A DNA stretch of 64,000 nt from Candidatus Abyssobacteria bacterium SURF_5 (GTDB lineage: Bacteria; Abyssobacteria; SURF-5), in assembly GCA_003598085.1 (NCBI GenBank), contig QZKU01000053.1, forward strand, positions 56,322 to 120,321. The letters run 5' to 3'. The notes below the pieces were generated by a model that did no database searches, was not told where the DNA came from, and was given only the letters and a program-made list of their open reading frames with translations. The position numbers and the translations under genes are program-made. Every line of letters starts with the position of its first letter. Position 1 is the first letter of the stretch. Shown here one piece after another: positions 53,331 to 60,774 of this stretch.

Positions 53331-53862
53331 CTAGTAATTCACTCTGTCGGTAAGCGCACCTTCAACATTCAGATTGATGCCGGTAGTGAAAGAAGAGCGG
53401 GGGCTGGCAAGAAAGACCACTGCGTTTGCGATCTCCTGGGGAGTCGCCATCCGGCCCATCGGATTTCTGGCCAGGGAGTCCTTGAAAAAATCGGGCATGA
53501 ATTGTTCGACCTTGTGCCAAACCCCGCCTTCAAAATAAACCATTCCGGGGGAAACCACATTCGCGCGGATTTTCTTCGCCGCATTTTGCTTCGCCACACC
53601 CTTGCGGCAAGCCCGCCTCAACCAAATAAACAAGCCCCAGAACATCCACATTCAGGTTCTGCTGCCATGAATCCTTATCCGCGCCGATGGCCATAGCGCC
53701 AACATTGGAAACCATGATGTCTATTCCGCCCAATTGCTTCGCCGCTTCGGAGACCCAATTGCTCAGGGAAGACTCATCAGAAACGTCCACCACTCCTCCA
53801 AATGCCGATACGTCTTTCGCTTCGAGGGCGCGGACGGCTTCATTCAGCTGATCCGAATTCAA
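53331..53862 (-). pseudogene. Broken short-chain dehydrogenase/reductase
   Basis: Two minus-strand frames together resemble an SDR. The first (53862 to about 53600) has VVDVSDESSLSNWV and IDIMVSNVGAMAIG. The second (about 53600 to 53331) has KKIRANVVSPGMVYFEGG, NPMGRMATPQEIANAVVFLAS and TTGINLNVEGALTDRV. The Rossmann TGxxxGIG start is missing, the segment with the catalytic Ser-Tyr-Lys is deleted, and the frame shifts at about 53600. It cannot be an active enzyme. It lies in a repeat-rich decayed region. Confidence 0.85.
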
Positions 53863-54054: not shown

Positions 54055-54636
54055 ATGCCATCTAATATTGAGATCAAGGCCAGGGTCAGAGAACACGACG
54101 CATTTAGACGCATTGCGACGCGTATGGCCACCGAACCACCGCAGACGCTTCATCAAGAGGACGTTTTCTTCCGTGTGCGAAAAGGAAGGCTCAAGCTTCG
54201 AATCTTTTCAGATGGTTCCGGTGAACTGATACAATACGAGCGACCGGATCTCACGGGAGCCAAACAGTCGCATTACCGGATTTACCGCACATCCAGGCCG
54301 CTCGAGTTGCGAAAGTTGCTTGCCGAGGCTTTGGACGAGACTGTTGCGGTAAAGAAGAAGAGAGAGGTCTATATAGCAGGACAGACCAGGATTCATCTGG
54401 ATGAGGTCGATAAGCTCGGCACGTTTGTTGAACTGGAGGTAGTCTTAAGCCCCCACCAGACCGTGGAGGAGGGGCAGAGACTTGCATCCGATCTCATGAG
54501 AAAATTGGGTATTAAGGAATCCGACCTGGTTCCTTGCGCCTATGCAGACCTCCTGGAAAACCAGGTCAAACAAGCTCGAAAAGAAGGTGTGTCGCACCCT
54601 CCAGTCAACTGGAGGAAACAAGAGGAGAGTTCATGA
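54055..54636 (+). CDS. CYTH-domain protein (CyaB / class IV adenylate cyclase type)
   Basis: A 193-residue CYTH protein. The metal and triphosphate-binding motif NIEIKARV starts at residue 4, and the alternating charged strands LKLRIFSDGSGELIQYERPD, VKKKREVYI, TRIHLDEVDKLGTFVELEV build the tunnel fold. Family members make cAMP or cleave tri- or thiamine-triphosphate. All core charged residues seem present. The start is set by AGAGGAAATC before ATG 54055; the longer frame from 53734 overlaps the SDR relic and promoter. Its stop overlaps the next gene's ATG (ATGA). Confidence 0.9.
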   Translation: MPSNIEIKARVREHDAFRRIATRMATEPPQTLHQEDVFFRVRKGRLKLRIFSDGSGELIQYERPDLTGAKQSHYRIYRTSRPLELRKLLAEALDETVAVKKKREVYIAGQTRIHLDEVDKLGTFVELEVVLSPHQTVEEGQRLASDLMRKLGIKESDLVPCAYADLLENQVKQARKEGVSHPPVNWRKQEESS

Positions 54637-55256
54637 CAGCGCCCACGATTCTCGAAATATTCTCCGACTATGTCTGACCGTGGTGCTACTTCAGTACGGT
54701 CCGTATTGAACAGTTGCGAAAGAATTACGACATTGAAGTCCGGTGGATCGCATTTCCGCTGCATCCCGACACGCCCGAGGGCGGGCTTGCCCTTGAAGAA
54801 CTTTTCCGGGGGCGATCGTTCGACCTGGAGGCGGTAAAGGCGCGTCTAAAGCAGGTGGCGGATGAATTGGGCCTGCCGCTTGCCGACCGGGACAAGACCT
54901 ACAACAGCCGCCTGGCGCAGGAACTGGCCAAATGGGCGGAATCGAAAGGCAAGGGAGACCTGTTCCACGATGCTGTCTTCCGCGCTTTTTTTGCCGAAGG
55001 CAAGAACATCGGCAATATAGATGAACTGGTCGCTATCGCGAAGTCGGCCGGACTTCCAGAGGAAGAGGCACGCTCAATCCTTGAGTTGAGAACATACAGG
55101 CAAGCCGTCGATGCAGACTGGTTGCGTTCGCGCGAGTTGGGGATAACCGCCGTCCCGACCTTTGTGGTCGATCACCGGGCGGTTGTGGGCGCCCAGCCGT
55201 ACGAGGTTCTCGAACAGCTCCTCAAGAAAAGCGGAGTCAACCCGCGCAAACCCTGA
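54633..55256 (+). CDS. FrnE/DsbA-like oxidoreductase, probable selenoprotein (UPWC)
   Basis: A 207-residue thioredoxin-fold protein reading ATG 54633, in-frame TGA 54675-54677, stop at 55256. The start MTAPTILEIFSDYV-(TGA)-PWCYFS fits the FrnE pattern SDYVCPWCYF, so TGA replaces the first Cys of the CPWC site (residue 15) and C18 is kept. Downstream the family features go on without damage: helical insert, then cis-Pro loop GITAVPTF (P175). AGAGGAGAG precedes the ATG, which overlaps the CYTH stop. A hairpin follows the TGA. Likely cytoplasmic (no signal peptide), acting in thiol or isomerase chemistry. A stop mutation would be the alternative. Confidence 0.85.
54690..54710 (+). promoter_or_regulatory. 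Candidate bacterial SECIS hairpin
   Basis: TTCAGTACG (54690-54698) pairs with CGTATTGAA (54702-54710), nine base pairs with one G-U. The loop region GGTCC begins 20 bases after the TGA, similar to the GGUC loop of the E. coli fdhF element. Confidence 0.7.
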
Positions 55257-55322
55257 CCGAGAAAACCATTTTTGAACCACGGATTTTCACGAATTAGGCG
55301 AATTAGAGAAAGGTATTTTTTT

Positions 55323-55356
55323 ATCCGCAGACGCCGTCCCGGACTCGATCCGGGAT
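55323..55356. repeat. 34-bp intergenic element, copy B
   Basis: Identical in sequence to 52976-53009, including the palindrome TCCCGGA-CTCGA-TCCGGGA. Confidence 0.85.
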
Positions 55357-55451
55357 CTGCTGATTCTCACGGATTCCTTCCAAAATCTAAAATCGGCAAT
55401 CGAAAATCTAAAATGGAGGGACCGCAGATGAACGCCGATGAGCTCCCCATT

Positions 55452-55481
55452 CGTCATCCTGAGCAGAGTCGAAGGATCTCT
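55452..55481. repeat. Dispersed GTCATCCTGAGC-type repeat, copy 2
   Basis: CGTCATCCTGAGC, then AGAGTCGAAGGATCTCT; see 8671-8700. Confidence 0.55.
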
Positions 55482-55488
55482 CTTCTCT

Positions 55489-55521
55489 TCAACTTTGAAC
55501 CTTGAACTTTGAACCTTGAAC
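55489..55521. repeat. Short tandem array TTGAACCTTGAACT
   Basis: Two or more 14-bp units of TTGAACCTTGAACT. A related fragment in inverted orientation (TTCAAGGTTCAAAG) borders the broken SDR at about 53858-53875. Confidence 0.6.
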
Positions 55522-55774
55522 TCATTTTCCACCACGGGTTTTCACGGATTAGAAAAGCAGACAACAGTCCACAGAAAGACTCTTCCTATCCGCGGATTGC
55601 GCAGATTTTTGAGGATTATTGGAACCGCAGATGAACGCCGACGGACGCCGATAAACGAGGATAAGGGCTGTAGGAAGAAGCAGGAAGGGTAGGCTTGGGG
55701 CGTTGGGTTCTGGGCTGCAGGGAACTGAAGAAACGGAGGTTTGGGACCTTCGGCGGCTGAGGACAACTTGTGCG

Positions 55775-55796
55775 GATCCCGGATCGAGGCCGGGAC
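55775..55796. repeat. Inverted partial copy of the 34-bp element
   Basis: GATCCCGGATCGAGGCCGGGAC is the reverse complement of the palindromic part of the 34-bp element with small changes (given here as two arms CCCGGATC and GGCCGGGAC). Confidence 0.5.
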
Positions 55797-55973
55797 AAGC
55801 ATTCACGGATTGGAAGGAGGGCGTTGGGGAGAAGTAACAGGAGGAAACGGAGAGAACGGAGGAGAGCGGTTTCTGGGCGTTGGCTAAAGCGGCTCCTGGC
55901 GCTGTCTATTGAATTCGAAAAGAAGGTGTAATATGACCCTGATCGCGTCCTAAAAAGAGGGTCGCGTGCTCAT

Positions 55974-56002
55974 TTGACAGCAGATATAACATATGGTATA
56001 AT
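55974..56002 (+). promoter_or_regulatory. Perfect consensus promoter with palindrome, defence operon
   Basis: TTGACA (55974-55979), 17-bp spacer, TATAAT (55997-56002). The spacer and -10 contain the near-palindrome TATA-A-CATATG-G-TATA (55985-56000), a likely operator for the operon's own HTH protein. Confidence 0.85.
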
Positions 56003-56053
56003 TCGGGCAACCTTACAGGCTCGCTTTACGATTTTGAGCAGAAAAGCAGAGAA

Positions 56054-59000
56054 ATGAGCAGATCTGAACGCATTGGTCCGAAGCCTGACGGTAAATATCC
56101 AGAACGTATAAGGGAACTCCGCGCCCATTTTGGGCTTACGCAGCAAGCCCTGGCTGCTTCTCTTGGCGTTTCTTTCGCCACCATCAACCGCTGGGAGAAC
56201 GGCCAGACAACTCCTTCTCAACTCTCCTGGAACCGGCTCCGAGAATTTGCGCTGCAAATTGCGGACCAACACACGCCCTATGATAAAAAGACAAGAAAGA
56301 ATGAGAAGGCTACCCTTGATTTCACGGCCAACCCCGAAGTAGTCAAACTGCTGGCGGAAGGGGAACGGCTTTCCTACGGCCACCTCATGAATCCCGCCTT
56401 TGCCACCGAAATATCGAGTATAGACCCGCTGCCGCATCAGAGAATCGCCGTGTATGACTACATGCTGAGGCAGCCTCGATTGCGTTTCCTTCTGGCAGAT
56501 GACGCCGGCGCCGGCAAGACGATCATGACTGGGCTCTATCTGCGAGAAATGCTTTCCCGCCGCCTGCTGCAGCGAATTCTGATCATTACTCCCGCCGGAC
56601 TGCTCGGCAACTGGAGGCGTGAGCTCCTCACTTTATTCAATCTTCCTTTTACTATCGTCAGCGGCTCCGATACCCGCGACAGGAATCCGTTTCTCGGCGA
56701 CAATAGCAATAATGTCATCATCAGCATCGATACCCTGGTCACTCCCCGTGTTTTCTCCTGTCTGAAAGAAGCAGCAACGTCTCCGTACGATATCGCCATT
56801 TTCGACGAGGCCCACAAGCTTTCAGCTGACCGCGGAACCGACATGAGAGTCATCAGGCGAAAAAGATACTGCCTGGCCGAAGCGCTGGCCGGAGTCAATG
56901 ACCTCAATGAAGACTGGAAGCTCGGTTGGAGCGTTCAGCACCTCCTGCTCCTGACTGCGACCCCGCACATGGGGAAAGACTATCCCTATTACGCCCTCTG
57001 GCGGCTCCTCGAACCGGACGGCCTCTCAACTCCCGCGGTCTTTAATAGGTACTCCCCTGAGCAGCGCCGGCGCCATTTTATCCGCCGGACAAAAGAAGAA
57101 ATGCTCCATCTCGACGGCGCGCCGCTCTTTCCGAAAAGAATAACCGATACTCATGCGTACAAATTGACTCAGGGGGAAATCAGCGAGCAAACGCTGTATG
57201 ACGAAACAACCGATTACCTGAAGTACGTCTACAACAGAGCGAAACTCCTGAATAGAGAAGCGGCGCGCCTCGCCATGGCAGTTTTTCAAAGGCGCCTTGC
57301 CAGTTCGACATATGCCCTGATGCGTTCTTTCGAGAGGCGGATTGAGAAGCTTGATAGATTAATCGAAGATGTCCAGGATGGAAAGCTGACCATCGAGCAA
57401 CTGCTCATGTTCCAAAAACGAATTCGAGAGGATGAGGACGTTCTTGATTCAAAGGCCGCGGATGAAGAATTTGAAATTGATGGGCGTGAAGAAAACGAGG
57501 TGGCCGAAGACAGGCTTCTGAGCGGAGTATACGCGGCTTCACTCGCCGATCTGTTGGCGGAGAAAGGGCAGGTAAAGGATCTGCTTGCGCTGGCGGAAAA
57601 AGTATATGATTTGGCATTGGAATCCAAATTTGAGAAGCTTCGGGAAATTCTGACTGACCCCAAATTCTCCGGCGAAAAATTTATTGTTTTCACAGAGCAC
57701 CGTGACACCCTCAATTTTCTCGTGAAGCGCCTGAATGGTCTCGGTTTTACCGGTCAGATTGCCCAGATACATGGGGGCATGCACTATACCGACCGGGAAA
57801 AAGAAGTCGAACATTTCCGCAAACAAGCCTCCGAGGGCGGCGCTCGTTTGCTGATTTGCACAGATGCCGCCGGTGAGGGAATCAATCTGCAGTTCTGCCG
57901 GATAATGATCAACTACGACATCCCGTGGAATCCCGCCCGCCTCGAACAGCGGATGGGGCGAATTCATCGGTATGGCCAAAAGCATGACCCAGTTCTAATC
58001 CTTAACCTTGTCTCTTCCTCCACCCGGGAAGGCAAAGTGCTGGGTACGCTCCTCCGGAAGCTGGAGACAATCCGAAAAGAGCTGAAATCGGACAAGGTCT
58101 TTGACTGCATCGGCCGCATCTTTTCTGATGTTTCGATAAAGAAGTACATGGAACTGGCCATTACGGCCGATCCGGACGATGTCGCCCGGGAACTTGATGG
58201 CCGATTGACAAAGGAACAGGTCGAAGCCCTTGCCGAACGAGAAAAATCTCTTTATGGCACGAATGGCGACGTTGCAAAAGAGCTCCCCCGCCTGCGGGAA
58301 ACTCTCGACCGTGAGATTTACTTCCGCTTGCTGCCCGGGTACGTCAGGCACTACCTCCAACGCGCTGCGCCACTTGTGGATATCAAGATAGATGGCGACA
58401 TGGACAAGTTCTTCACGATGCGCCCGGTAAAGCCGGGAGCGATGGATGAGATCCTGCCCTCGTTGGAGATATACCCTGAGACAGTAAGGAACGCGCTCTC
58501 TGTTTCACGCCCTCCAGATAGAGACGAAGCAGTCTGGCTTCATCCCGGCGAACCGGTATTTGAAGAAATTCGAAGGCTTGTATCCAATCGATTGTCTGAG
58601 CAGGGCCGCCGCGGCGCCATTTTTATCGATCCCTCTTCAGAACACCCCTATCTTTTTCATCTGGCCTTGCTTTCAGTTGTTCGGCAAACGGATTCCGACA
58701 TACCTGAACTGGCTCGGGAAGATGTTCTGGAAACGAAACTCGTCGGACTCAGACAATATGATGATGGAAAAATCAGCCTGTGCCCAGTGGAGCATCTCCT
58801 GCTGCTGAAAGGAGGAAGAGGGCTTCCCTCCTCTGCGCAAAACCTTGCCGTTTCCGCTCAAGAGAAAATCCAGCGTGCCCAGCTGTTTCTCACGGAGGGA
58901 CCTGTCCGGGAAATTGCCCTCCGACATAAACAGCGGCTCCTGGAAAACCTGCCCGAGCGGGAAATTTTCATCAAGAAAGGGTTCGATTTTCAGGAAGCCG

Positions 59001-59629
59001 AATTTGCGACTGCCCGCGTGAAGCAATCAGAAAAAGCCCGGGCCGGAAACCGCAAAGCGCTGCAAGCGCTCGAAGAAATCAAACAGCGGCAGAGAAATCT
59101 CGGTTCCCGCCGCAAAGCGGTTTTGGAAGCTGCGCGAAAGGAAATAGAGCTTGTTGCTCCGGCGCCTGTCGTTTTCATAGCGCATGCCCTTGTGGTTCCC
59201 TCTTCCGATCCCGCCGAGATTGAGCGACACCGGGCGACTGTCGAAATGGTGGCTATGGAGATTGCTCAGGCTTTCGAGGAGGCCGCGGGAGCCGACGTCG
59301 CCTATGTGCACACGCCGGAATTGGCTCGAGGTGCAGGCCTTCCAGACAATCCTGGATTCGATCTTCTTTCAACCCGCTCCGGCAATTGCAGGCGAGCGAT
59401 AGAGGTGAAAGGGCGTGCCGGCACCGGAGAAGTTGAAGTTTCTTCCAATGAATGGGCGCGTGCATGTAACATGCGAGAAGATTACTGGCTGTATGTGGTG
59501 TACGAATGCGCCACACCAAGTCCGCGCCTCGTTCGGGTTCGCGACCCCTTCGGCGCCTTGCTCGCGAAAGCCAAAGGAAGCGTTCTGATTGGAGTCAAGC
59601 AGGTCATGGAAGCAGCGGAGGTACTATGA
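56054..59629 (+). CDS. HTH-SNF2 helicase-DUF3883 defence-type protein
   Basis: A 1191-residue multidomain protein. Residues about 18-70 are an XRE helix-turn-helix (LTQQALAASLGVSFATINRWENGQ). Residues about 120-760 are a SNF2-type ATPase: Walker A DDAGAGKT (149-156), DEAH (251-254), TATPHMG, and the C-lobe DAAGEGINLQFC and RMGRIHRYGQ. After a helical region, the last 100 residues (PGFDLLSTRSG, RAIEVKGRAG, VSSNEWARA) are a DUF3883 domain, a nuclease-like fold. Such proteins are known in DISARM-like and DUF1156-associated defence loci and would translocate on DNA. The fused HTH may regulate its own operon. The ribosome site is weak. Confidence 0.9.
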   Translation: MSRSERIGPKPDGKYPERIRELRAHFGLTQQALAASLGVSFATINRWENGQTTPSQLSWNRLREFALQIADQHTPYDKKTRKNEKATLDFTANPEVVKLLAEGERLSYGHLMNPAFATEISSIDPLPHQRIAVYDYMLRQPRLRFLLADDAGAGKTIMTGLYLREMLSRRLLQRILIITPAGLLGNWRRELLTLFNLPFTIVSGSDTRDRNPFLGDNSNNVIISIDTLVTPRVFSCLKEAATSPYDIAIFDEAHKLSADRGTDMRVIRRKRYCLAEALAGVNDLNEDWKLGWSVQHLLLLTATPHMGKDYPYYALWRLLEPDGLSTPAVFNRYSPEQRRRHFIRRTKEEMLHLDGAPLFPKRITDTHAYKLTQGEISEQTLYDETTDYLKYVYNRAKLLNREAARLAMAVFQRRLASSTYALMRSFERRIEKLDRLIEDVQDGKLTIEQLLMFQKRIREDEDVLDSKAADEEFEIDGREENEVAEDRLLSGVYAASLADLLAEKGQVKDLLALAEKVYDLALESKFEKLREILTDPKFSGEKFIVFTEHRDTLNFLVKRLNGLGFTGQIAQIHGGMHYTDREKEVEHFRKQASEGGARLLICTDAAGEGINLQFCRIMINYDIPWNPARLEQRMGRIHRYGQKHDPVLILNLVSSSTREGKVLGTLLRKLETIRKELKSDKVFDCIGRIFSDVSIKKYMELAITADPDDVARELDGRLTKEQVEALAEREKSLYGTNGDVAKELPRLRETLDREIYFRLLPGYVRHYLQRAAPLVDIKIDGDMDKFFTMRPVKPGAMDEILPSLEIYPETVRNALSVSRPPDRDEAVWLHPGEPVFEEIRRLVSNRLSEQGRRGAIFIDPSSEHPYLFHLALLSVVRQTDSDIPELAREDVLETKLVGLRQYDDGKISLCPVEHLLLLKGGRGLPSSAQNLAVSAQEKIQRAQLFLTEGPVREIALRHKQRLLENLPEREIFIKKGFDFQEAEFATARVKQSEKARAGNRKALQALEEIKQRQRNLGSRRKAVLEAARKEIELVAPAPVVFIAHALVVPSSDPAEIERHRATVEMVAMEIAQAFEEAAGADVAYVHTPELARGAGLPDNPGFDLLSTRSGNCRRAIEVKGRAGTGEVEVSSNEWARACNMREDYWLYVVYECATPSPRLVRVRDPFGALLAKAKGSVLIGVKQVMEAAEVL

Positions 59630-60774
59630 TGGCCTTCGACCTTGCCTTATTTGCGGATAAGCTTCGACGCTACTGCAAACAGTTTGAAGTTACCAATGAC
59701 GAAATTTCTCAAAGAACCGGAATATCATTGGAACGGCTTAATGGTTTAGCCGCTCAAGAATCCGAACCTACCGGCGATGAAGTGCTGATCTTGGCAGATT
59801 TCTTTAAATGTGATTACAAGTTCTTCATTTCAAACGAGAAGCTAGCCCCCTTTGAGCAAACTGAACTTCTCTTCAGGAAATATGGAGACAAACTCACGCG
59901 AGATGACCGGTGGGCGATTCAAGAATTCCTTTTCCTGTGCGAGTGCCAGTATTTTTTGCTTAGCAGTATGTCAGATTACAGGCCTCATCCCTTCAAATTT
60001 GAAAAAACAGGACATATATATAAAGAGCATGGAGTTGCTGCTGCCGCTGCACTACGCAGGCATCTTGGCTATGAGCCCCATAAAGTACCGATGGACATCT
60101 ATGACGACTTTAGAAAAATTGGAATCCACGTCTTTCGCCGGCGCTTAATAAAAAGTTCAATATCAGGCTTATTTATTCGCCATCCTGTGGTTGGCCCCTG
60201 TGTCCTTGTAAATTACACTGAAGACGTTTTCCGTCAGCGGTTTTCCGCTGCCCATGAAGCCGCTCACGCGATACTAGATGATGAGAGTGACTTCGTGATT
60301 TCCTTTTCAGCTTGGGATAAGGAGGACCTATCAGAGATTCGTGCAAACGCTTTTGCCTCACACCTGTTAATGCCTCCAGAATTCCTAAAGAAAATCCCTG
60401 TCCGTGTCTGGGATCTTTCTCAGGTACTAGACTGGGCAGTTAAATTAATGGTTAATATTGATCCTCTCCTATATGCCCTTTGTGCATTAGGATTAATGAG
60501 CACAAGTGAAATGAACCAAATCAAGAAGAGAAGAGTCCGCCTCGATAAAAAGTCAGACCCAGAATTACCGGAAAATCTATCTCCTCGTGCTCGAACAAGA
60601 AAAGAGGAGTTGCTCAAGCGCGGACTTTCTGATTTTTACGTTAAGCTGTGTTTTGACGCTTTCGAGAACGGTATCATATCGGGTGGAAGACTAGCTGAAA
60701 TGCTATTGATTACTGAGCCGGAGATTATGGAAATAGCGGCACTTTACGGAAGGGGAATGGGCCATGTCAATTGA
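59626..60774 (+). CDS. XRE / ImmA-IrrE metallopeptidase protein
   Basis: A 382-residue protein. An XRE-like HTH lies at about residues 20-60 (TNDEISQRTGISLERLNGLA). The ImmA/IrrE zinc protease motif is H210-E211-x-x-H214 (AAHEAAH), with the downstream helix EIRANAFASHLLMP typical of COG2856. Such proteins cut a repressor or act as antitoxin partner of a nearby toxin. CGGAGG precedes the ATG at 59626, which overlaps the helicase stop. It overlaps the PIN gene by 11 bp, a classical toxin-antitoxin layout. DNA here is visibly AT-richer than the rest of the window. Confidence 0.9.
   Translation: MMAFDLALFADKLRRYCKQFEVTNDEISQRTGISLERLNGLAAQESEPTGDEVLILADFFKCDYKFFISNEKLAPFEQTELLFRKYGDKLTRDDRWAIQEFLFLCECQYFLLSSMSDYRPHPFKFEKTGHIYKEHGVAAAAALRRHLGYEPHKVPMDIYDDFRKIGIHVFRRRLIKSSISGLFIRHPVVGPCVLVNYTEDVFRQRFSAAHEAAHAILDDESDFVISFSAWDKEDLSEIRANAFASHLLMPPEFLKKIPVRVWDLSQVLDWAVKLMVNIDPLLYALCALGLMSTSEMNQIKKRRVRLDKKSDPELPENLSPRARTRKEELLKRGLSDFYVKLCFDAFENGIISGGRLAEMLLITEPEIMEIAALYGRGMGHVN

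Follow-up and report, generated by a model that had tools for sequence, protein, structure and literature searches.

The gene at 54633–55256 (forward strand) of the window, i.e., the whole 64,000-nucleotide stretch of DNA analysed, almost certainly encodes a selenium-containing redox enzyme, in which an in-frame UGA (54675–54677) is predicted to specify an active-site selenocysteine. As judged from the sequence, the product is very probably a cytosolic FrnE-type thiol-disulfide oxidoreductase of DsbA fold, carrying Sec at the nucleophilic position of a UPWC motif, with the UGA decoded via a hairpin at 54690–54710.

The frame opens with ATG at 54633, contains the TGA as codon 15 and terminates with TGA at 55254–55256. 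Translated with TGA as Sec, it yields MTAPTILEIFSDYV-U-PWCYF..., a product of 207 residues interrupted by no further internal stop, in agreement with the preliminary description of a 207-codon frame with TGA in place of the first Cys codon of a CPWC motif. The resolving cysteine of UPWC, Cys18 (TGC at 54684–54686), is the sole Cys codon in the frame and is conserved in 29/29 aligned rows. The cis-Pro loop proposed earlier corresponds to TAVPTF (residues 172–177, 55146–55163), of which V174 and P175 are invariant; the cis-Pro role of P175 is suggested by the thioredoxin fold. Among 12 candidates retrieved by scanning the window for UxxC, CxxU and UxC motifs, only that at 54675 gives a recognisable protein. 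Mechanical ORF calling starts downstream of the TGA at 54714 (TTG) and returns a 180-aa ORF devoid of the active site, so that the expected loss of the N-terminus and active site in standard annotation does occur; the called starts likewise fall 3' of the TGA in two homologues (L047 and L049).

The protein matches PF01323 (DSBA, Pfam; E 2.2e-35) with 122.6 bits versus a gathering score of 25.6. Among solved proteins, FrnE of Deinococcus radiodurans is the best match by sequence (E 4.8e-26), and Streptomyces SCO1869 (3gl5) is also matched (E 7e-20). An AlphaFold model based on 29 aligned relatives (mean pLDDT 94.9) places the first strand at residues 5–11 and residue 15 just before a helix formed by residues 16–31. 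The top PDB folds are five FrnE entries (5cnw, 5co3, 5coh, 5cp1 and 5xwh; TM 0.86–0.88, 33 % identity), together with SCO1869. Model and alignment accordingly display a DsbA fold with a cis-Pro loop and a CxxC-type motif at the N-terminal end of helix 1, and the earlier assignment as FrnE-like oxidoreductase holds, with FrnE ranking first in sequence as well as fold. A search of the protein against NCBIfam yielded no family above cut-off.

Codon 15 is TGA in 31 rows of the homologue alignment (window included), 30 of them exceeding 50 % identity, and TGC or TGT in 52 rows of more than 40 % identity; since the homologues were retrieved through peptide patterns, these counts do not represent prevalence. 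Two of the loci (L018 and L047) seem to be one gene reached by two routes. The aligned gene part of the TGA forms is free of any other stop. Inspection of this codon in homologues, as the preliminary description had suggested, thus revealed TGA or Cys only and no disordered stops. According to their record labels, the TGA forms belong to Abyssobacteria/Hydrogenedentota, Myxococcota, Thermodesulfobacteriota, Nitrospirota, Planctomycetota, Rokubacteria and Alpha-, Beta- and Gammaproteobacteria. Searches of plasmid and viral collections provided nothing beyond distant homologues (<60 % identity) or partial matches. The nearest named relative possessing the gene is Candidatus Abyssobacteria SURF_17, the protein of which is 81 % identical and has the same TGA. 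Compared with this relative, dN/dS is ~0.16 upstream of the TGA (only 14 codons) and ~0.12 downstream; judged from these substitution ratios, the codons on both sides of the TGA are under purifying selection. The flanking motifs LEIFSDYV and PWCY are conserved at the protein level across TGA and Cys forms.

On a tree without true root, the Sec label requires 7 changes versus 24 in shuffles, indicating that it is clustered, yet with several gains or losses. Of two Betaproteobacterial proteins placed close together (L052 and L066), one has Cys and the other Sec, and the fixed-position hairpin is missing from the Cys form (3/8 pairs); these two proteins perhaps reflect a recent Sec/Cys exchange. 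In addition, a distant homologue (L021, G049:C31:97403-97975; ~31 % identity) has the motif CPWCNNSAV, in which TGA takes the place of the first Cys codon, as well as a different downstream hairpin, and perhaps represents a separate branch of UxxC DsbA-like selenoproteins. Tentatively, and with some doubt, one may speculate that Sec is the old state in this FrnE subclade, that the UPWC gene with its one conserved SECIS was retained in, or exchanged among, many phyla, and that the Cys forms are repeated reversions following loss of the Sec machinery.

The preliminary description had named selA, selB, selC and selD as genes to look for, and all of them are present in the host assembly (5.1 Mb, 98.5 % complete). 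On contig C41, selA (588 bits, E 1e-176) lies immediately upstream of selB (381 bits, E 8e-114). The tRNA-Sec scores 67.5 bits versus an Rfam cut-off of 47 bits and is also called by ARAGORN (anticodon TCA); it was found in 3/3 genomes examined from the host's family. The selD gene (388 bits; L128, 1501–2442, reverse strand, contig C42) contains an in-frame TGA in SGGUACK and is itself a predicted selenoprotein gene, so that the host genome has a second gene requiring UGA to be read as Sec. Across the homologues, selB was detected above the curated cut-off in 23/28 genomes with the TGA form versus 7/22 with the Cys form (Fisher p = 0.0005, relatedness ignored). Two of the five TGA-form genomes without such a match (those of L063 and L065) hold strong partial selB matches, and the remaining ones may be incomplete assemblies. 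We infer from these sequence data, all of which derive from assemblies, that UGA is decoded as Sec in this organism.

The bSECIS-like hairpin (54690–54710, forward strand) consists of the arms TTCAGTACG (54690–54698) and CGTATTGAA (54702–54710), forming 9 bp including one G-U, and of the loop GTC (54699–54701), which begins 21 nt after the UGA. Bacterial SECIS elements, by the criteria of Zhang and Gladyshev, are hairpins just downstream of the UGA with a small apical loop, a G in its first two positions and a distance of ~16–37 nt from the UGA; the hairpin at 54690–54710 has these properties. The corresponding hairpin UUCAGUAC/GUAUUGAA, with a loop of 3–5 nt located 20–21 nt after the UGA, forms 7–8 of 8 pairs in 30/31 TGA sequences, the sole exception being the distant L021 (31 % identical), versus 2–6 of 8 at the same positions of Cys homologues, in which the element is absent. 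Altogether, 93 % of the hairpin cells are paired, and no slid register exceeds 49 %. Three pairs are changed on both sides (16 cells), and the covariation is higher than in any of 500 shuffles or any slid register; pairing at fixed positions amounts to 215/232 versus 134 expected from synonymous codon shuffles of each gene, with both shuffle tests ignoring the relatedness of the sequences. Eight sequences show a U-A to C-G exchange, which requires AGU/AUU to change jointly to AGC/GUU, and the Arg residue is encoded by CGT in 29/29, indicative of synonymous constraint. The nine base pairs originally described, and the position of the element, are retained. The GGUC-type loop is not the conserved form: what is shared is the loop position and a G within the first two nucleotides of the loop, most homologues having CGUGC or CGGGC and only L072 sharing the G-GUC-C of the window. 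The hairpin covaries across homologues; an Rfam search of 54600–54800 (E up to 1) found no match.

Energy-based folding favours a different element. In UGA-containing segments folded on their own, ViennaRNA prefers a hairpin overlapping the UGA (54676–54701, z ~ -1.6), and RNAalifold likewise returns the competing UGA-overlapping hairpin as consensus of the alignment, which would fit a selenoprotein whose functional element is this UGA-proximal hairpin. Such an element is unlikely: compensatory changes number 0 in 28 sequences, the invariant PWCY codons explain the sequence, the apical loop is too close to the UGA for the usual bSECIS spacing, and covariation is found for 54690–54710 instead. 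The RNAalifold consensus was accordingly rejected as a coding by-product without covariation. The choice of the hairpin at 54690–54710 is thus made on comparative evidence only, as energy folding prefers the competitor.

Three further explanations dispense with selenocysteine. A lone in-frame TGA looks like a nonsense mutation and, together with the missing Rfam SECIS match, could point to gene decay or mis-assembly that has broken an active-site codon. This reading, of negligible probability, is already refuted by the many separate genomes with TGA at this codon (~30 homologues spread over many phyla and free of other stops); purifying selection downstream, the covarying hairpin and the complete sel set also argue against it. 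Slightly less remote, though still highly improbable, is a product beginning after the TGA (e.g., at TTG 54714), i.e., a truncated non-redox protein with the upstream 14 codons not co-translated, as the 180-aa ORF and the similar calls in L047 and L049 would have it. It conflicts with the protein-level conservation of LEIFSDYV and PWCY around the TGA in both forms, and in the structural model the strand formed by residues 5–11 and the active-site helix 16–31 would be lost or cut. Finally, near-cognate tRNAs do read through UGA in bacteria, so that insertion of another amino acid (Trp or Arg, or one assigned by an altered code) might be considered. There is hardly any probability left for this, since close homologues without TGA have Cys alone at the site, tRNA-Sec and selAB are encoded in the genome, the hairpin accompanies the TGA form, and UGA (55254–55256) also serves as the stop of the gene itself. 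The complete sel set, the restriction of the codon to TGA or Cys and the covarying hairpin thus argue for the selenoprotein originally proposed.

For decoding, SelB with GTP and Sec-tRNA-Sec(UCA) would bind the hairpin at 54690–54710, and the UGA at 54675–54677 would be read as Sec. The selenol of Sec15 would then attack substrate disulfides, and Cys18 would resolve the mixed selenide-sulfide. A cytosolic location is suggested by the absence of a visible signal peptide. Reduction or isomerisation would seem likelier than oxidation, given that this direction is favoured by Sec and that the enzyme is probably cytosolic.

Upstream of the selenoprotein gene and on the same strand, a gene for a CYTH-domain protein (54055–54636; PF01928, E=1.4e-20) overlaps with its stop the start of the former (ATGA). 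The overlap described earlier is thus real at this locus; as CYTH adjoins no homologue, it is a local and not a conserved arrangement, and no conserved gene neighbourhood was apparent by eye among ten loci. Beside the CYTH gene, a short-chain dehydrogenase on the reverse strand (53331–53862) seems split into two overlapping frames (53331–53651 and 53530–53862), suggesting a frameshifted remnant. The ~800 mostly non-coding bases 3' of the selenoprotein gene (55257–56050) contain short dispersed direct repeats, e.g., GGRACCGCAGATGAACGCCGA and TTCACGGATTRGAA. They are followed by a gene (56054–59629) for an HTH, SNF2/Helicase_C and NOV_C protein matching PADLOC HmaA (E 4.9e-153) and an overlapping one (59596–60774) for an HTH and IrrE/M78 metallopeptidase protein with RmrA/capP-like matches; together they look like a defence-type module.

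The protein had initially been regarded as a probable new selenoprotein. COG2761 is presumably the COG of FrnE. A study of the Sargasso Sea predicted in 2005 a selenoprotein termed "DsbA-like protein" (COG2761, motif UXXC, nine sequences, predicted SECIS; PMC1088965), which was listed in 2008 for the GOS data as "DsbA 1" (pfam01323, UxxC, 63 sequences; PMC2398784), retained as DsbA-like UxxC selenoprotein in a 2022 compilation (PMC9312934) and named "DsbA-like protein form 1" (PF01323) in a 2026 review (PMC13188914). The claim of novelty is therefore withdrawn: the gene is a well-supported member of the known DsbA-like UxxC kind and constitutes no new family. Novelty is confined to the individual member, its lineage and the comparative data on the SECIS. 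In the text consulted of the published accounts, FrnE is not named and this lineage is not described, and none of the papers searched pairs Abyssobacteria with selenocysteine. Since ordinary gene calling cuts the enzyme at its active site, misannotation across many uncultured phyla is likely. With ~30 TGA and ~50 Cys relatives, the covarying hairpin makes for a clean SECIS alignment and allows naturally occurring Sec and Cys forms to be compared in a fold with solved structures; for a little-known lineage, one well-supported gene is added to the selenoproteome.

Compared to known systems, the protein shares with the published DsbA-like UxxC selenoproteins PF01323, the UxxC motif, widespread Cys homologues and a predicted bSECIS after the UGA; agreement with that family (AACY01178397, NIP15863.1) is by domain and motif. 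The Rcas_1661 family thioredoxin-like (seleno)lipoprotein (NF041057) is likewise a Sec-containing thioredoxin-fold family, but it is a lipoprotein and matches the C-terminal part of the protein weakly; membership was rejected at 42.6 bits, far under the 190-bit cut-off. D. radiodurans FrnE and SCO1869 are the top matches in sequence and fold, and their CPWC aligns with UPWC. Both are longer (239–260 aa versus 207 aa), and D. radiodurans FrnE has Cys at the position occupied here by the predicted Sec. D. radiodurans FrnE carries a second, C-terminal Cys pair, which is absent from the window protein with its Sec15 and Cys18 only. Unlike in D. radiodurans FrnE, electrons would thus have to pass through UPWC alone.
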